From Arthrobacter terrae (GTDB lineage: Bacteria; Actinomycetota; Actinomycetes; Actinomycetales; Micrococcaceae): DNA of 64,000 bases. Every line of letters starts with the position of its first letter. Within the stretch, counting starts at the first letter, position 1. This document shows, in pieces, positions 1,195 through 64,000 of the stretch. The position numbers and the translations under genes were made by a program. Where the stretch lies: positions 124,001 through 188,000 of the forward strand of contig NZ_JADNYM010000007.1 of the NCBI RefSeq assembly GCF_015708085.1. Direction: 5' to 3'. The notes beneath the pieces were generated by a model. That model ran no database searches. It was given only the letters and a program-made list of their open reading frames with translations, and was not told the origin of the DNA.

Positions 1195-3488
1195 CAGCCC
1201 GCCTCACATCCGAGTTGTCCTAAACTCGACCGTTCCACGTACCAATCCGAATGGATGGATTTTATAGTCCGGAGTGCTGATACTGAGTCTCCCACCATCG
1301 ATCGATACTCCAGCTGGCGGGAACTGAGCGGACTGCCTTCGTCCACGAGGCCCCAAATTGGTCGCCCCGACCCCAAATAGTCCGAATATTTAGACGGCAG
1401 GAACGGATTAATAGGAAGTTCCCCTGTTCGCTCAACATCATTGACGAGCAGCACATCAAAGCGCGTAGAGAGATTCAGAAACTCCAAATAGGGCCTGTAA
1501 CCTTGTGCTTTTACAATTCCGGTCAGGCCTAGCCGCTGAACCGTCTCGGAAAGATCTTTGGCCTTATTTGTAAAGACGTGCAACCGCAGCTCCTGTCGTA
1601 CTTGGACAGGAGCATTGACCAAGGCTGTCAGCACATCCATGAGACCGCGATTGTCATAGAAAGCTCCAAAATATCCAACATTCACTACTGAGCTGGAAAG
1701 TTGATAGTCCGATTGCATAACGTGGTAGCTGCGCGGAGGCGGCGTGGGATGTACTCGCACTATCGCTTTCTCCCCGACCAACCGGCGGAGCCTCTTGTCA
1801 GAAATATTGCTCAGCATGTACTCCAACTGGTTTGCATTCGTGAAGATGATTTCGTCGGCCAGTACGTAAGTGATGTGCTCACACCAGGTGAAAAGGTTGT
1901 CGGTCGCCAGCGAAGCATAGCCTTTCGAGACTATGCCTCGGTTAAATGCCTCAAACATCTCATCTCGCACGAGATCGCCCTTGCGACGTTCTCCTTTAGC
2001 ATCATGGCTGAGAGGATCGGAGAACTCAGCAGTCCATTTCACAGCCGGATGCCTCAGCTTGAATAAGGCAGCCAGAAAATGTGAGCCGGTCCACAAAACG
2101 CGGCTGTAGAGACTTTTGTAGCCACCGTTCCGAGCGTCCTGCCGATCGGCCACGCTTATGCCTTTGGCAACAAACTCCGAAATTTGCTTCCAACCAGCAA
2201 AGGAAGCGGGGGCATCGATCTCGAAGGACTTATCTATGAAACGACCCGCAATGGTCTCGATATTAGAGTCAACCCGGCGTACTTTATTCATATTGTTATA
2301 AATTACGTCGACTATTTTCCCTCGCTCAACAATTGCTTTTGATGCAACAGTGGCGCTTGTATCGGAATACGGGGCAAAACAATAACTAACCACAAGATCT
2401 TGCGCAAGATTATCGTTTATTTTTGGCCAAGGAAAGTTTCGAATCCCACTCGCGTCGATCGTCCCAATAATTCGTTCGCGCTCATTTGTGTGATCGCTGA
2501 GATACCGCTGTATGAAACCCGCCTGTGACCTGATTAATGTGGTTAACAACGCATCATTGTTGGAGCCATCCCAAGGTCGAAGGCTTTCCAAGTCTGCAAT
2601 CACGTCCAAACGCTGCTGCACTGCAAAATCGAAATCGAGCGGATGCCGGGAAATAGAATCATCACGGAGTGTCCGAAAATAAGCACCCGTTCGATCTTTG
2701 CTGCTTACCACCGCATCGAAAGCGTGTGCAGTCGCGACGGATGCCATGAAACAAATGTCTTCCCCGCTACGCAGCCCTTCCGAGTATCGCGTATGGAGTA
2801 TGGCAGCCGTAGGGAACAGCTTACAGGCGTTAAAGCCAACTAGGCTACTGGCAGCGGTCAACTTGAACGGATTACCCGCGCGGGCCAAGATCTGCTTGTT
2901 CAACGAATTTTCGGCATCTTCAAGCCCTTCCACATCCACGTTGTATATAGGTGCAATTGCAACACAATTTGGTCCGGCACTGTTTAAAAGCGCAGAGAGG
3001 AAAAGAGGTCCGACATAATCGTCGTCGTCCACGAATGTGAGGTAGCTGTAGCGCGCAGCTGCGATACCGAGGTTGCGGGCTGCGCCGGCTCCGGCTTCAG
3101 CCTGAAACAGAACACGAAGTGAATGTTCCAAATGTCGAGCTTTTAGTACTTGAGCAAGCTCAAAAGTCCCATCATCTGGGCCGTTGATGACCAAGATGAT
3201 TTCGAAGCGCTTGGGGTCCAACTCCTGGTCCATCAGCGAGCCAAGACAGGTCTCAATTCGGTCGACCCCCTGGAAGCTCGGTATAACTACAGTTACACCT
3301 GCGAGCAATCCGTCCGGATCAACGTCTACGGGCTTAGTTTGCGTCGGGGCGGTATGACGGACAAGCAGTGCAATCTCCGCGGCCCGCGCTGCCGAATTTG
3401 TAAACATTCGCGAACCGTAGTCTATGTCCTCCGTCGGATTGACCGGCAGTCGCCCAGGAAGATTGACCTCGTTGGAGATGTGCGTCAT
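1194..3488 (-). CDS. Two-domain glycosyltransferase (GT2 + GT4-like)
   Basis: At 764 residues this is far longer than a single glycosyltransferase. Residues about 65-300 form a GT2 (GT-A) domain: VTVVIPSF at the start, the AGAGAARNLG segment, and an acidic metal/nucleotide-sugar motif FVDDDD with aspartates 154-157. The C-terminal part (about 600-760) has a GT-B/GT4 look, with NVGYFGAFYDNRG near 605 followed by LPSKYSDYLGSGRPI, which resembles the donor-binding end of GT4 enzymes. It probably adds one or two sugars to a lipid-linked glycopolymer on the cytosolic membrane face. It starts with an ATG overlapping the upstream stop (ATGA) and ends at TGATG with the PP-loop gene. Donor and acceptor cannot be read from the sequence. 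Confidence 0.85.
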   Translation of the reverse strand: MTHISNEVNLPGRLPVNPTEDIDYGSRMFTNSAARAAEIALLVRHTAPTQTKPVDVDPDGLLAGVTVVIPSFQGVDRIETCLGSLMDQELDPKRFEIILVINGPDDGTFELAQVLKARHLEHSLRVLFQAEAGAGAARNLGIAAARYSYLTFVDDDDYVGPLFLSALLNSAGPNCVAIAPIYNVDVEGLEDAENSLNKQILARAGNPFKLTAASSLVGFNACKLFPTAAILHTRYSEGLRSGEDICFMASVATAHAFDAVVSSKDRTGAYFRTLRDDSISRHPLDFDFAVQQRLDVIADLESLRPWDGSNNDALLTTLIRSQAGFIQRYLSDHTNERERIIGTIDASGIRNFPWPKINDNLAQDLVVSYCFAPYSDTSATVASKAIVERGKIVDVIYNNMNKVRRVDSNIETIAGRFIDKSFEIDAPASFAGWKQISEFVAKGISVADRQDARNGGYKSLYSRVLWTGSHFLAALFKLRHPAVKWTAEFSDPLSHDAKGERRKGDLVRDEMFEAFNRGIVSKGYASLATDNLFTWCEHITYVLADEIIFTNANQLEYMLSNISDKRLRRLVGEKAIVRVHPTPPPRSYHVMQSDYQLSSSVVNVGYFGAFYDNRGLMDVLTALVNAPVQVRQELRLHVFTNKAKDLSETVQRLGLTGIVKAQGYRPYLEFLNLSTRFDVLLVNDVERTGELPINPFLPSKYSDYLGSGRPIWGLVDEGSPLSSRQLEYRSMVGDSVSALRTIKSIHSDWYVERSSLGQLGCEAG

Positions 3489-18727: not shown

Positions 18728-19678
18728 ATGAGGAACTTCACACCACCACTCTGGATCACCTCGGCGGACGACCCGGACGACGAATATTTCTCGCGCAGGC
18801 TGTCCCGCCGCGCCAAGTCCGGCGAGCTCACGCGGGTCCGGCAAGGGTTGTTCCGGCCGACCACGGTCTGGCATAACCTCAAGCCCTGGGAACAGTATCG
18901 GATGCGGATCGAGGCCGTTCACCGCACAGCGCGTTCGGCTCCGATTTTCTGCCATCGTGCAGCCGCGCAAATGTGGGGAATCCCCGTCATAACCATTCCG
19001 GCAACTGTGGACACCTATGAGGGCCGGTCGGGCGGAGGGCATTCAGGGGCGGGCGTTCACCGGCACCGGGCAGATCTGGCGAAAGTCTGCACGGCGCGGG
19101 TAGACGGGCTGATCGTGACGTCCAAGCTACAGACGGCACGTGATCTCGCGGTGGTTCTGCCCTTTCCAGAGGCCGTTGCGGCAATGGATAGGATCCTGTC
19201 CCCGCGGCTGTTAGTGGGAGAAAGGAGATCCGGCCCGATCCAGAAGAGCCAAATGGAAATCTCCATGAAGCTCCTACCGCATGCAAACCACATCAGGCGG
19301 GTTGAACGGGTGCTGTCATTCGCTGACGGGCTCTCAGGCTCACCAGGCGAATCGCTAAGCCGCGCTTACATGAAGCAGTTCGGGTTCCTTGCACCGGAGC
19401 TACAACACGAGGTTCGGGATGGGCAGGGCCGGATCGGTTACACGGACTTTTACTGGAATGAGCTCGGATTAGTCGGCGAATTTGATGGTTGGGTCAAGTA
19501 CTCGCGTGGCGAATACCTCGCTGGCGATTTACCGGCGGAGGCGCTGTGGAAGGAAAAGATCCGCGAGGACCGGATCAGGGCTACGGGGCTGCGGGTAATC
19601 CGCTGGATGTGGCCCGAGGTCAGCAACCCCGACCTATTGCGTCAACGGCTGCTGGGCGCCGGGCTGCGGCCGCAATGA
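18728..19678 (+). CDS. AbiEi/DUF559-like protein with PD-(D/E)XK-type nuclease domain
   Basis: This 316-residue protein has two parts. The first about 100 residues contain RVRQGLFRP and IFCHRAAAQMWGIP, the pattern of type IV AbiEi antitoxin-like winged-helix domains seen in many actinobacterial proteins. The C-terminal part (about 205-310) looks like the DUF559/Vsr-like restriction endonuclease fold: SPGESLSRAYM, then YTDFYWNELGLVGEFDGWVKY, then a helix and TGLRVIRWMWPEV. The aspartate of TDF, the glutamate/aspartate of EFD and the following lysine would form the catalytic core. Biological role is unknown. It stands alone, and palindrome family 1 copies lie on both sides of it. A distant paralogue is encoded at 57579-58562. 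The SD before the ATG is weak. Confidence 0.75.
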   Translation: MRNFTPPLWITSADDPDDEYFSRRLSRRAKSGELTRVRQGLFRPTTVWHNLKPWEQYRMRIEAVHRTARSAPIFCHRAAAQMWGIPVITIPATVDTYEGRSGGGHSGAGVHRHRADLAKVCTARVDGLIVTSKLQTARDLAVVLPFPEAVAAMDRILSPRLLVGERRSGPIQKSQMEISMKLLPHANHIRRVERVLSFADGLSGSPGESLSRAYMKQFGFLAPELQHEVRDGQGRIGYTDFYWNELGLVGEFDGWVKYSRGEYLAGDLPAEALWKEKIREDRIRATGLRVIRWMWPEVSNPDLLRQRLLGAGLRPQ

Positions 19679-19740: not shown

Positions 19741-19778
19741 TGGACGGATGCCGTGGAAATTTCCATGGCATCCGTCCA
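19741..19778. repeat. Palindrome family 1, near-perfect copy
   Basis: This 38-bp inverted repeat begins TGGACGGATGCC and is centred on AAATTT. Eighteen of nineteen pairs are Watson-Crick and the other is G-T. It lies between the convergent ends of the nuclease-like gene (63 bases away) and leuD (58 bases away). It could act as a bidirectional terminator, but no T-tract follows the arms on either strand. Confidence 0.85.
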
Positions 19779-38701: not shown

Positions 38702-38749
38702 TGAATTGGACGGATGCCGGGGAAATTTCCCCGGCATCCGTCCAATTCA
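38702..38749. repeat. Palindrome family 1, perfect extended copy
   Basis: A 48-bp perfect palindrome contains the 38-bp family 1 core at 38707-38744, beginning TGGACGGATGCC with centre AAATTT, and extends five bases further on each side. It lies between the convergent lipoprotein gene and serA, 17 bases from the serA stop. The core differs from the 19741 copy at only a few positions around the centre. Confidence 0.88.
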
Positions 38750-53941: not shown

Positions 53942-54007
53942 CCCAACTAAGTAGCAGCACCTGCACGCAAACCACGTTTTGACTGCAGGTGCTGCTACTT
54001 AGTTGGG
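53942..54007. repeat. Palindrome family 2, copy A
   Basis: Perfect 24-base arms at 53942-53965 and 53984-54007 start CCCAACTAAGTAGCAGCACC and enclose 18 bases. It begins eight bases after the mqo stop codon and ends 32 bases before the RND pump start. The outer part of each arm is shared with the copies at 57451 and 58550. Confidence 0.92.
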
Positions 54008-57441: not shown

Positions 57442-57450
57442 CCCTCCTGC

Positions 57451-57516
57451 CCCAACTGAGTCGCACTTGCGGCACTCATTTCGCGTTATGAGTGCCGCAA
57501 GTGCGACCCAGTTGCG
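57451..57516. repeat. Palindrome family 2, copy B
   Basis: Arms of 27 bases (57453-57479 and 57488-57514) with a single mismatch begin CAACTGAGTCGCACTTGCGG and enclose TTCGCGTT. It begins nine bases after the RND stop codon and ends 65 bases before the nuclease-like gene start. Confidence 0.92.
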
Positions 57517-57578
57517 GGCGGAGAGACCAAACTGTGGATAACGGGCCACGCCGGCCGGACATTTGCCATCATGGGCAC

Positions 57579-58562
57579 ATGCGACCTCCACTTCCGCTTC
57601 CTGATCCTTTGGATCGTGAACCTTTCACGCTACAACGCGGTCTGGACGCCGGAGTCAGTTACGGCAGGCTGCGGAACCGCCGTTTTAGCCGCCCCAGCCG
57701 GGGCATCAGAGTTCCGGAAGACGACGGCCGCCCCAGCCGGGGCATCGAAGTTCCCGAAGACGACGACGGCCATAAACTGGCGATGCTGGCGGCGCCGCTG
57801 TCGCAGGTGACCGGGCGTTCCGCCGTCGCCCATGAAAGCGCTTTCGTAATGTGGAAGTTCCCCGGTTTCCTTCCCGGTGCCGAGGGGTCAAGCGTCCACA
57901 TTGCCCGGCCCGACACGGCTGCCATCGTCCGGCGCCGAGGCGTCATCGGACACCGGGGACAGTTCTTCGACGACGAAGTCACCTGTCTGAACGGCGTGTG
58001 GATTACCACAAGGACGCGGACCTGGCTGGATATCTCCCGCCGGATGAGCGTGGACGAGCTCACCGTCGTTGCCGACCATCTGATTCGCATCCCACGGCCC
58101 AGGTTTGAGCCCCGGTCCGTTCCCTATGCGACTGTGGCAGATCTGGCCGACATGCTCGACCGGCACCAAGGGACCCCGGGCATCCGCAAGGCGAGACTGG
58201 CGTTGCAGCAGGCCCGCATCGGCGCCGATTCTGCGCCCGAAACCCGGCTGCGCCTCGCCGTCGTCCGGGCTGGACTGCCGGAACCAGAGCTGAACCGCGG
58301 CCTCGAGCTCGGGAATGCTACCCGGGAGCCGGACTTGTCCTTCCCGCTGTACCGGGTCGCGGCCGAGTATGACGGCAGCAGCCATTCCGAATCAGATCAG
58401 GTGGTCCGGGACATCCGCCGCGAAGAGGACTTTGCCGCGGGCGGCTGGATCCAGGTGCGGATTTCGAAGCGGCACATGGCTGATGACGCCAAAGCGGCCG
58501 TGTCGAAAATCCGCGCCGCGTTGCTGTCCCGCGGCTGGTCCCCGGCCGGCCCAACTGGGTAG
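57579..58562 (+). CDS. DUF559/AbiEi-like protein with PD-(D/E)XK-type nuclease domain (second copy)
   Basis: From ATG 57579 the protein has 327 residues. The N-terminal domain (TLQRGLDAGVSYGRLRNRRFSRPSRGIRVP) has the AbiEi-like winged-helix pattern, as in the protein at 18728. The C-terminal third is DUF559/Vsr-like: APETRLRLAVVRAGLPEPELN, then EPDLSFPLYRVAAEYDGSSH, then the helix QVVRDIRREEDF and GGWIQVRIS. The aspartate of PDL and the glutamate/aspartate of EYD are candidate catalytic residues. A 39-bp duplication repeats RPSRGI-VPEDD early on. Its final codons and TAG stop are formed by the left arm of palindrome copy C, and copy B lies upstream. No function is established. Confidence 0.78.
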   Translation: MRPPLPLPDPLDREPFTLQRGLDAGVSYGRLRNRRFSRPSRGIRVPEDDGRPSRGIEVPEDDDGHKLAMLAAPLSQVTGRSAVAHESAFVMWKFPGFLPGAEGSSVHIARPDTAAIVRRRGVIGHRGQFFDDEVTCLNGVWITTRTRTWLDISRRMSVDELTVVADHLIRIPRPRFEPRSVPYATVADLADMLDRHQGTPGIRKARLALQQARIGADSAPETRLRLAVVRAGLPEPELNRGLELGNATREPDLSFPLYRVAAEYDGSSHSESDQVVRDIRREEDFAAGGWIQVRISKRHMADDAKAAVSKIRAALLSRGWSPAGPTG

Positions 58563-58615
58563 CAGCACCTGCAGCTAAAATGCGAAATGGGTGCCTCAAG
58601 TGCTACTCAGTTGGG
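58550..58615. repeat. Palindrome family 2, mosaic copy C
   Basis: Outer arms CCCAACTGGGTAGCA (58550-58564) and TGCTACTCAGTTGGG (58601-58615) pair with one mismatch; the inner bases do not pair. The left half continues like copy A (GCAGCACCTGCAG) while the right half (GTGCCTCAAGTGC) resembles copy B (GTGCCGCAAGTGC), so this copy looks like a hybrid. Both neighbouring convergent genes use TAG stops inside it. Confidence 0.85.
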
Positions 58616-62900: not shown

Positions 62901-63158
62901 TCAGAAATACCTCGCCGCATGCACGGTCTCCATTACCGCTTGAACTTCCGCGCCTACTCTGTGGCCCTCCTCCCGGACTGTGCCCTTCGCTTTCACGAGG
63001 AAGAGCATCGGGGCCAAGGCATGCGTAAAGCCTGCTGCGATGAGTGCTTCGGCTTTCGCCGCCGTTCCTGCAACAACGATGCACGGTGGCGGCCCCTGCA
63101 TGAGCCGCAGCAGCCCGGGTGAACCGAGCCTGGAAAGTTTTTCAAAATACTTTTCCAC
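62901..63158 (-). CDS. Small hypothetical protein, possible gene remnant
   Basis: I do not recognise this 85-residue reading frame. It looks protein-like: PPPCIVVAGTAAKAEALIAAGFTHALAPM resembles a strand-loop-helix, and KAKGTVREEGHRVGAEVQAVMETV an amphipathic helix. A GTG start at 63158 has no proper SD. It lies between the SDR gene, with which it converges, and the 13E12 gene. It may be the end of a decayed larger gene. Confidence 0.35.
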   Translation of the reverse strand: MEKYFEKLSRLGSPGLLRLMQGPPPCIVVAGTAAKAEALIAAGFTHALAPMLFLVKAKGTVREEGHRVGAEVQAVMETVHAARYF

Positions 63159-63325
63159 AGGGGCCGTTTTTGGGGTCTTTTTGTCCTGGTGATGTCGGTG
63201 TCTCTTCGTAGCCTTGGAGTAGTTGGAGATCGGGAGGATTTCCTGGTTTTCTTACCGGTGCAGGTGGCCGGTACAGACGGCCGGTGTGGGTTGCCGGGTT
63301 CGGGTGTTGAGGGGTGGTGGGTGGT

Positions 63326-64000
63326 GTGGAGATTGATCGGGAGAATCTGGCTCGGGTGCTGGCTGCGGTCACGGCGAAGTATCCGCATCGGCTCGAGCGC
63401 TCGGGCCTAAGCACCGGCCCGGTCCCTGGCAATGGCCCTGCCACCGGCCCTGCCCCTGCCGCAGTTCCGGGGACCGGCCCTGCCACCGGCTCCGGTCCTG
63501 TTCCCGTCCCTGGCACTGTTCCCGGGACCGGCCAGCCCGACGACGACGGGACCGACCGGCCCGACGACGCCGCCGGTACCGGCGGGTCCGATGCCGGCGG
63601 TGCCGCCAACCCGGGTGTTTCCGCTGGTTTGCCGGTTTCTGGGGTACCGGTTGATGGTCCGGTTGGGGAGGCTCTGTTTGTGGTGGGGCCGTCGGCGGGG
63701 ATCGTGGGACGGTTGGAGCAGGTGAACGTGTTGTTGGCGGAGGTTTTGGGGACGGATCCGCAGGCGGTGTCGCAGGAGGCGTGGCTGTCGATTATTGGTG
63801 CGGCTGAGAGTACGCGGCGTCGGTTGGATGCGGTGTATCTGCACAGTGTCGCGGCCGCTGATCAGTGCGGGGCCGCGGGGTTGTCCGGGATCGGGACGAA
63901 GAATATGCGTGAGTATCTGGTGCATGGGGTGGGGGTTGAACCGGGGCGGGCGAAAGCCGATGTGGAAGCGGCCCGCGCCATCCACACCAACACCAACGGC
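63326..64000 (+). CDS. 13E12 repeat family protein (DUF222, HNH endonuclease), truncated by window end
   Basis: An open frame runs from GTG 63326 (GTG codons at 63314 and 63317 are alternatives) to the window edge, 225 codons, and is cut there. It opens VEIDRENLARVLAAVTAKYPH, passes a Gly/Pro/Thr/Asp-rich low-complexity stretch of about 75 residues, then enters a DUF222-type helical domain: VGRLEQVNVLLAEVLG, ESTRRRLDAVYLHSVAAADQCGAAGLSGIGTKNMREYLV and VEPGRAKADVEAARAIH. The HNH nuclease domain would lie beyond the window. 13E12 genes are multi-copy in many actinobacteria; their function is unknown. The G/C-rich, repeat-laden linker is unusual in length. Confidence 0.8.
   Translation, partial: MEIDRENLARVLAAVTAKYPHRLERSGLSTGPVPGNGPATGPAPAAVPGTGPATGSGPVPVPGTVPGTGQPDDDGTDRPDDAAGTGGSDAGGAANPGVSAGLPVSGVPVDGPVGEALFVVGPSAGIVGRLEQVNVLLAEVLGTDPQAVSQEAWLSIIGAAESTRRRLDAVYLHSVAAADQCGAAGLSGIGTKNMREYLVHGVGVEPGRAKADVEAARAIHTNTNG

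Follow-up and report, generated by a model that had tools for sequence, protein, structure and literature searches.

A candidate REPIN/RAYT-like palindromic repeat system in actinobacteria, centred on a Vsr/EDxHD-type nuclease

To our knowledge, HUH transposases (RAYTs) are the only dedicated mobilisers known for bacterial palindromes of the REP type. Associations of REP/REPIN sequences with a RAYT (TnpA-REP) are called "REPtrons" (PMC3116915, PMC3733652, PMC8266576). Among nucleases of another kind, the EDxHD homing endonuclease I-Bth0305I is reported in a review to dimerise on a target of nearly 60 bp (PMC3943268). In the full-text literature, whose coverage mostly leaves out subscription papers, we found no DUF559 or AbiEi nuclease tied to palindromic repeats among the best-ranked matches, and an earlier description is possible. 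Two papers that mention both DUF559 and palindromic sequences appear, from their titles, to be unrelated.

Here, we analysed a window of 64,000 nucleotides from Arthrobacter terrae (genome G000, 4.43 Mb), in which a gene for a nuclease-like protein lies between two palindromes of one family. The best reading, to which we give a probability of about 0.58, is that of a REPIN/RAYT-like system in which an unrelated, non-homologous nuclease is dedicated to one palindrome family.

The nuclease gene and its palindromes in the window

The gene (57579..58562, + strand) encodes a protein of 327 aa, with an AbiEi-like N-terminal part (coding region 57579..58061, + strand) followed by a Vsr/DUF559/MTES_1575-like domain (58191..58538, + strand; residues about 205-320). 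The N-terminal part matches the PADLOC AbiEi models (6.1e-11, residues 74-161), and the Pfam AbiEi models gave no match in the protein. The Pfam matches are MTES_1575 and DUF559 only; both are C-terminal, weak and under the curated cut-offs. In an alignment of 17 sequences, E221, D252, E263 and D278 are invariant; they are the putative catalytic residues of the nuclease domain. The AlphaFold2 model of the protein (pLDDT 84.9, pTM 0.78) has as its best Foldseek match the catalytic domain of I-Bth0305I (PDB 3r3p), with a probability of 1.00 and a TM-score of 0.76 by target length, at an E-value of only 0.031; no structural match was found at 0.001. Sequence-level matches to vsr, 3hrl and 3r3p are weak. 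From the model, the C-terminal domain is thus predicted to adopt a Vsr/EDxHD-like nuclease fold. Comparison of homologs indicates that the gene is under purifying selection (dN/dS of 0.16-0.19 in four pairs, a rough ratio with dS above 1 in all four). No adjacent AbiEii toxin gene was found among the larger neighbouring ORFs (Mqo, AcrB-like, MFS and luciferase-like), and PF01797 (Y1_Tnp) is absent in 14 of the 15 genomes tested, G000 included, G004 having one Y1 transposase gene.

The original prediction, which placed a palindrome on each side of this gene and a third copy near 53942, was borne out on both points. The 5' palindrome (57451..57516, no strand assigned) lies 62 bp ahead of the start codon and 9 bp past the stop codon of the upstream AcrB-like gene; its arms, 89% complementary, reach 57444-57523. 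The 3' palindrome (58550..58615, no strand assigned) is an imperfect copy with a hairpin score of 12, and overlaps the stop codon of the nuclease gene, which is contained in its left arm. The third, solo copy (53942..54007, no strand assigned; arms 93% complementary) occupies the gap between the Mqo gene and the AcrB-like gene, 8 bp past the Mqo stop codon. Hence, all three copies sit at gene ends, either 8-9 bp past a stop codon or covering one. The palindromes at 57451-57516 and 53942-54007 head the inverted-repeat list of the window and share the top score (24 each) of its hairpin scan; the 3' copy is not among the inverted repeats listed. Folded as single DNA strands, all three do far better than shuffled sequences, with z-scores of -12.5 (57444), -9.7 (53942) and -5.4 (58550). 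In Rfam, the hairpins give only weak matches of miRNA type, under the gathering scores. We considered integron attC sites, which the CCCAAC/GTTGGG ends suggest, and set them aside on general grounds; a phage or plasmid element was likewise discarded, the 64-bp pattern being unmatched in viral contigs and the 5' window palindrome unmatched in plasmids. Elsewhere in the window, at about 63120-63500, a stretch of 300-380 bp is repeated many times in G000 and in its relative G002, often near contig ends; no hairpin was found in it.

The genome-wide count called for in the original prediction gave, in G000, 17 occurrences of the 64-bp pattern of this family (family 2) against 0 for a reversed control pattern, and 24 copies by arm pairing with one mismatch per arm allowed. 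Only two of these 24 copies flank the nuclease gene, and none of the other relatives of the gene in G000 is bracketed by family 2. With 22 of the 24 copies away from the gene and the other relatives unbracketed, family 2 is therefore a dispersed and not a local repeat. Its unit of 66 bp reads CCCAACT-RR-GT-M-GCA, then a six-base variable block and an inner part, then the mirror image. We compared 62 family 2 palindromes from ten genomes, a set that omits the 65-bp copies, one copy of G163 and four copies of G057 and includes the one-mismatch copy at 57452. The outer arm is almost fixed. The six-base block is variable yet pairs at 68.0%, versus 50.7% when arms are re-dealt within genomes (0/500), and the inner part shows no excess of pairing (82.6% versus 82.6% predicted from the genome consensus). 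Corresponding copies can differ in both arms together, as at L014. Ordinary template switching at quasi-palindromes can also yield compensatory changes between arms, so these paired changes are not proof of selection. In family 2, GTAG/GTCG is internal and present in both arms, with no GTAG/CGTC tetranucleotide at the palindrome end; most of the other palindrome types that we read are also without GTAG or CGTC at one end.

The original prediction went further and had a second paralog in the window bracketed by a palindrome family of its own. This did not hold. The only candidate found, a gene at 18728-19678 with a weak AbiEi_4 match, has a palindrome (19741-19778) on its 3' side only, and the second copy of this palindrome (38702-38749) is 19 kb away; as this first family brackets no gene, the argument from two families in one window falls. 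Moreover, a phmmer search of the window ORFs with the window protein (P0001) returned no match besides its own gene. The palindromes at 19741-19778 and 38702-38749 have TTTCCNNGGCATCCGTCCA arms, and the C-terminus of the 18728-19678 product looks nuclease-like by eye. These palindromes could possibly belong to a further type of nuclease/palindrome system.

Bracketing and palindrome type across relatives

When 197 genomes of its family-level group were searched with the window protein, 129 contained relatives (E 1e-20). We examined 90 relatives among the matches listed (30 loci plus 60 further matches taken downwards, some being skipped), 89 of which had complete flanks. At a hairpin score of at least 12, 63 of these 89 genes have a hairpin within 200 bp upstream and 65 have one at or just past the gene end; 54 genes have both sides occupied and 74 have one or both. 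In equally wide, overlapping control windows from the same DNA, such a hairpin occurs in 26 of 2640 cases (1.0%). With the score set at 10, the counts rise to 68 upstream, 70 downstream, 62 on both sides and 76 on either, for a control rate of 4.2%; at this score, 13 of the 89 genes are left with no clear hairpin at all. In many members, the 5' copy lies about 50-70 bp ahead of the estimated start. A separate group of 28 loci, outside this count and with uncertain gene starts, has hairpins on both sides in about 6 cases and on one side or none in the rest.

The two flanks of a gene resemble each other. In 57 pairs with hairpins of 40-80 nt on both sides, the median similarity is 0.64 within a locus versus 0.12 between loci, and in 52 of the 57 loci it exceeds the 95th percentile of the between-locus values. 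On the other hand, 66 of the 90 genes fall into ten groups with common neighbouring DNA. The nuclease gene thus seems to move little, many of the similar palindrome pairs are merely orthologs, and the gene has for the most part been passed on together with its flanks, both changing in sequence in step.

Genes bracketed in this way are also found in Brachybacterium (L040) and Mycobacterium (L046, L063, L065 and the second relative in L044), as well as in named Arthrobacter and Tsukamurella records. In L044, from Mycobacterium aquaticum, this second nuclease relative stands between near-identical palindromes at 2346-2411 and 3361-3414. Homologs occur in six records of the plasmid collection, four of them of at least 0.75 Mb, and in one record of the phage collection. 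Six loci were fetched from these collections, leaving out one homolog of the plasmid collection (H5); five have hairpins on both sides (in two of these, one side is weak at score 10), and the sixth has a hairpin just on its 3' side. In a contig labelled Bacteriophage sp., from human faeces (L280), a 59-bp palindrome (1870-1928) follows a nuclease relative.

Palindrome sequence varies with the nuclease. In the co-variation analysis proposed in the original prediction, palindrome similarity tracks protein identity (Mantel r 0.64, 0/2000 permutations, n = 54, three of the 57 pairs being excluded for a stop codon or short coverage). The mean palindrome similarity is 0.70 at a protein identity of at least 70%, 0.33 at 55-70% and about 0.15 below 45%, i.e., high similarity is confined to close relatives.

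The distribution of given palindrome types is consistent with this. Type CGACTGCTCCG occurs in 7 of the 197 genomes (G023, G042, G050, G073, G134, G185 and G186), and all seven have a relative flanked by CGACTGCTCCG or, in G023 and G042, by a near variant; six of the seven carry copies away from the gene. The family 2 pattern occurs in 11 of the 197 genomes, and its link to the gene is looser. In G000, G004, G013 and G163, a homolog is flanked by the family 2 type. In G122, G151 and G176, the homologs are 60-61% identical and carry flanks of a type that is related to family 2 but distinct from it (L092, L091 and L090, respectively), which slightly lowers our confidence in the main reading. G002 has just a broken remnant of a close homolog, one fragment of which contains two stops; G136, G065 and G057 carry family 2 copies with no homolog found above 41% identity. 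The original prediction would have been undermined by family 2 in genomes lacking the gene. This is in part what we see: genomes without an intact close homolog make up 4 of the 11 for family 2. CGACTGCTCCG is confined to genomes with the gene. The four genomes are either evidence against a strict gene/palindrome rule or cases of loss. Within the genus, G004, with a 72% homolog, has 22 family 2 copies; G003, with a 63% homolog, lacks the strict pattern but carries a variant of its own in 9 copies, two of which directly precede its gene; and in G001, which has only a 40% homolog and no close ortholog, no family 2 copies were found.

Two paralogs of Tsukamurella tyrosinosolvens NCTC13231, 42% identical, each have their own matched flanks. 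The two palindromes are unrelated and were found at 20 places in 8 records and at 12 places in 9 records, a palindromic copy possibly counting once per strand; in 72,556 plasmid records, all of these are Tsukamurella. This pair of paralogs with two dispersed families is the clearest case of matched pairs. The palindrome of Arthrobacter sp. StoSoilB13 was found at 37 places in 2 records, with no other organism matched. On one StoSoilB13 replicon, a near-perfect solo palindrome (L279, 5512-5581) resembles the palindrome that follows the nuclease gene on the other replicon. Altogether, the matched nuclease/palindrome pairs proposed in the original prediction find support in bracketing above control, in matching flanks, in co-divergence, in one gene-confined type and in Tsukamurella.

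Solo copies and competing explanations

For 16 solo copies of G000, we recovered 40 corresponding sites (501-1001 bp) from four relatives. Copies are recognisable in G002 at about 10 of 16 sites, in G004 at 9 of 15, in G003 at 2 of 5 and in G001 at 0 of 4. This tally includes the L010 copy of G002, added by eye, and excludes remnants at L012 and L021; the pairing score of 0 that L010 receives in both G000 and G002 reflects the 65-bp length of its palindrome and not an absence. The solo site of the window (53942..54007) has a copy in G002 and none in G004, G003 or G001. One site, L003, is cleanly empty in G002, and no target duplication is visible at this one clean empty site; as the copy is present in G004 and G003, the empty site may reflect a loss in G002. 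At L016, the gene end CAACTRRG of those relatives that have no copy continues into the palindrome arm; an insertion target rule drawn from this was dropped, the other sites being without this pattern. L023 (G000 contig C15:56301-56364) is a family 2 palindrome in frame within a coding gene; G002, G004 and G003 also carry it in frame, and G001 does not have it. As for the cassette itself, G001 is without it between the same neighbours, its flanks differ and the MFS gene is absent as well.

At the G002 locus of the decayed nuclease, the 3' palindrome and part of the 5' palindrome persist. Of nine scorable copies in G002, eight have fewer pairs than in G000, and at the five sites common to G002 and G004, the G004 copy is equal or better in 5/5. 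This pattern hints that palindromes may erode after the loss of the nuclease; it is only suggestive, with 9 copies and sites chosen as intact in G000. We also read Tsukamurella solo copies, one per record (7 of one type and 8 of the other). Among the 15 annotated ones, the flanking genes are convergent for 10, tandem for 5 and divergent for 0, and the nearest stop codon lies within 12 nt in 14 and at 30 nt in one.

Solo copies would receive another meaning if the cassette itself were mobile: they could be empty homing targets, or remnants left after recombination between the flanks, as are solo LTRs. Each flank is indeed a whole palindrome, as expected if the gene entered a palindrome with target duplication, and the closest fold is that of a homing endonuclease. 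We nevertheless consider this unlikely, since none of the 40 solo-site stretches of the relatives encodes a nuclease fragment in tblastn (the control locus was found), 22 of the 24 G000 copies do not flank the gene, and 66 of the 90 genes are at shared loci. That a quite different transposase spreads the palindromes in trans, the nuclease gene being a hitchhiker, is very improbable. Copies without an intact close homolog in 4 of the 11 genomes, and the Y1 transposase gene of G004, speak for it; Y1_Tnp, the only transposase type searched, is absent in 14 of the 15 genomes, and hitchhiking predicts neither matched flanks nor co-divergence across many nuclease lineages.

The position of the copies bears on two further explanations. 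AbiEi antitoxins are DNA-binding regulators, and the N-terminal part of the protein matches AbiEi; the palindromes could hence be operators bound by an AbiEi-like regulator of its own and other genes, the nuclease domain being secondary. The 5' copy would fit, as its distance from the estimated start, about 50-70 bp in many members, places it where a promoter is likely. The second copy does not, being at the stop codon, and neither do the solo copies, which are at gene 3' ends with 0/15 between divergent genes, nor the L023 copy, in frame within a coding gene; moreover, operators do not look like hairpins with arms of 30 bp, and we regard a regulon of this sort as rather improbable. The same preference for 3' ends, with 10 of the 15 Tsukamurella solo copies between convergent genes and several nearly filling the gap, is what terminators or mRNA stabilisers would show, i.e., 3'-end hairpins of the host that the nuclease genes merely share. 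There is little chance that this is the whole explanation, because it accounts neither for the two-sided bracketing of one gene family, nor for palindrome sequences that track the nuclease, nor for two paralogs with two families.

Proposed mechanism and comparison with known systems

We thus favour the reading in which a dedicated nuclease maintains its own palindrome family. Bracketing, flank matching, co-divergence, dispersal, and presence or absence at orthologous sites are established by comparison between genomes, at the level of sequence; from these we infer that the nuclease binds and cuts the palindromes and that a copying step follows. In the mechanism that we propose, the gene and its two flanking palindromes would form one cassette. 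The AbiEi-like N-terminal part may recognise the lineage-specific outer arm, with the protein probably acting as a dimer on the whole palindrome of ~64 bp. The Vsr/EDxHD-like domain would then nick or cut the palindrome, or the hairpin that it forms, and host repair or replication could copy, renew or remove palindromes. We know of no nuclease of Vsr/EDxHD-type fold that acts as a strand transferase; the copying step would therefore need host functions. The outcome would be a low-copy palindrome population, mostly at gene 3' ends, that keeps its symmetry and lineage specificity for as long as the nuclease is there and erodes once the enzyme is lost.

The gene/palindrome system is seen in Micrococcaceae, Brachybacterium, Tsukamurella and Mycobacterium. 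On balance, we lean towards a new class of actinobacterial palindromic repeat system: a Vsr/EDxHD-type nuclease, joined to an AbiEi-like recognition part, would spread or renew a hairpin family specific to its lineage. Such a system would be convergent with REPIN/RAYT, would use no HUH enzyme and would comprise many independent enzyme/palindrome specificities. If true, this would add a second, unrelated mobiliser enzyme with many natural specificities, and assign a role to a group of DUF559-type proteins. Species-specific repeats in actinobacteria could be accounted for in this way, and matched protein/DNA pairs would become available for studying the evolution of recognition.

Several known proteins resemble parts of the window protein. 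Its C-terminal domain matches both entries of the DUF559/MTES_1575 group (PF04480, PF18741), under the curated cut-offs. The AbiEi antitoxin of the AbiE type IV toxin-antitoxin system resembles its N-terminal part (PADLOC 6.1e-11); unlike in AbiE, a nuclease domain comes after the AbiEi-like part, and there is no AbiEii toxin among the larger neighbouring ORFs scanned. By fold, the closest solved catalytic domain is that of I-Bth0305I (PDB 3r3p), which is a mobile intron protein by its PDB name and for which the accessible part of PMC3943268 describes no dispersed palindromes.

At the level of the whole system, REPtrons come closest. The enzymes differ: RAYTs belong to the HUH/Y1 tyrosine transposases and process REP in single-stranded form, with a GTAG tag, whereas the window protein combines a Vsr-like nuclease with an AbiEi-like N-terminus. 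The palindromes also differ, being mostly 56-76 bp and of low copy number in the window system, and Y1 is absent from 14 of 15 genomes. In common, both have dispersed hairpin-forming palindromes, a dedicated gene flanked by copies, and co-evolution of gene and palindrome. Moreover, the gene is vertically inherited in both, as described for RAYT (PMC8049555).
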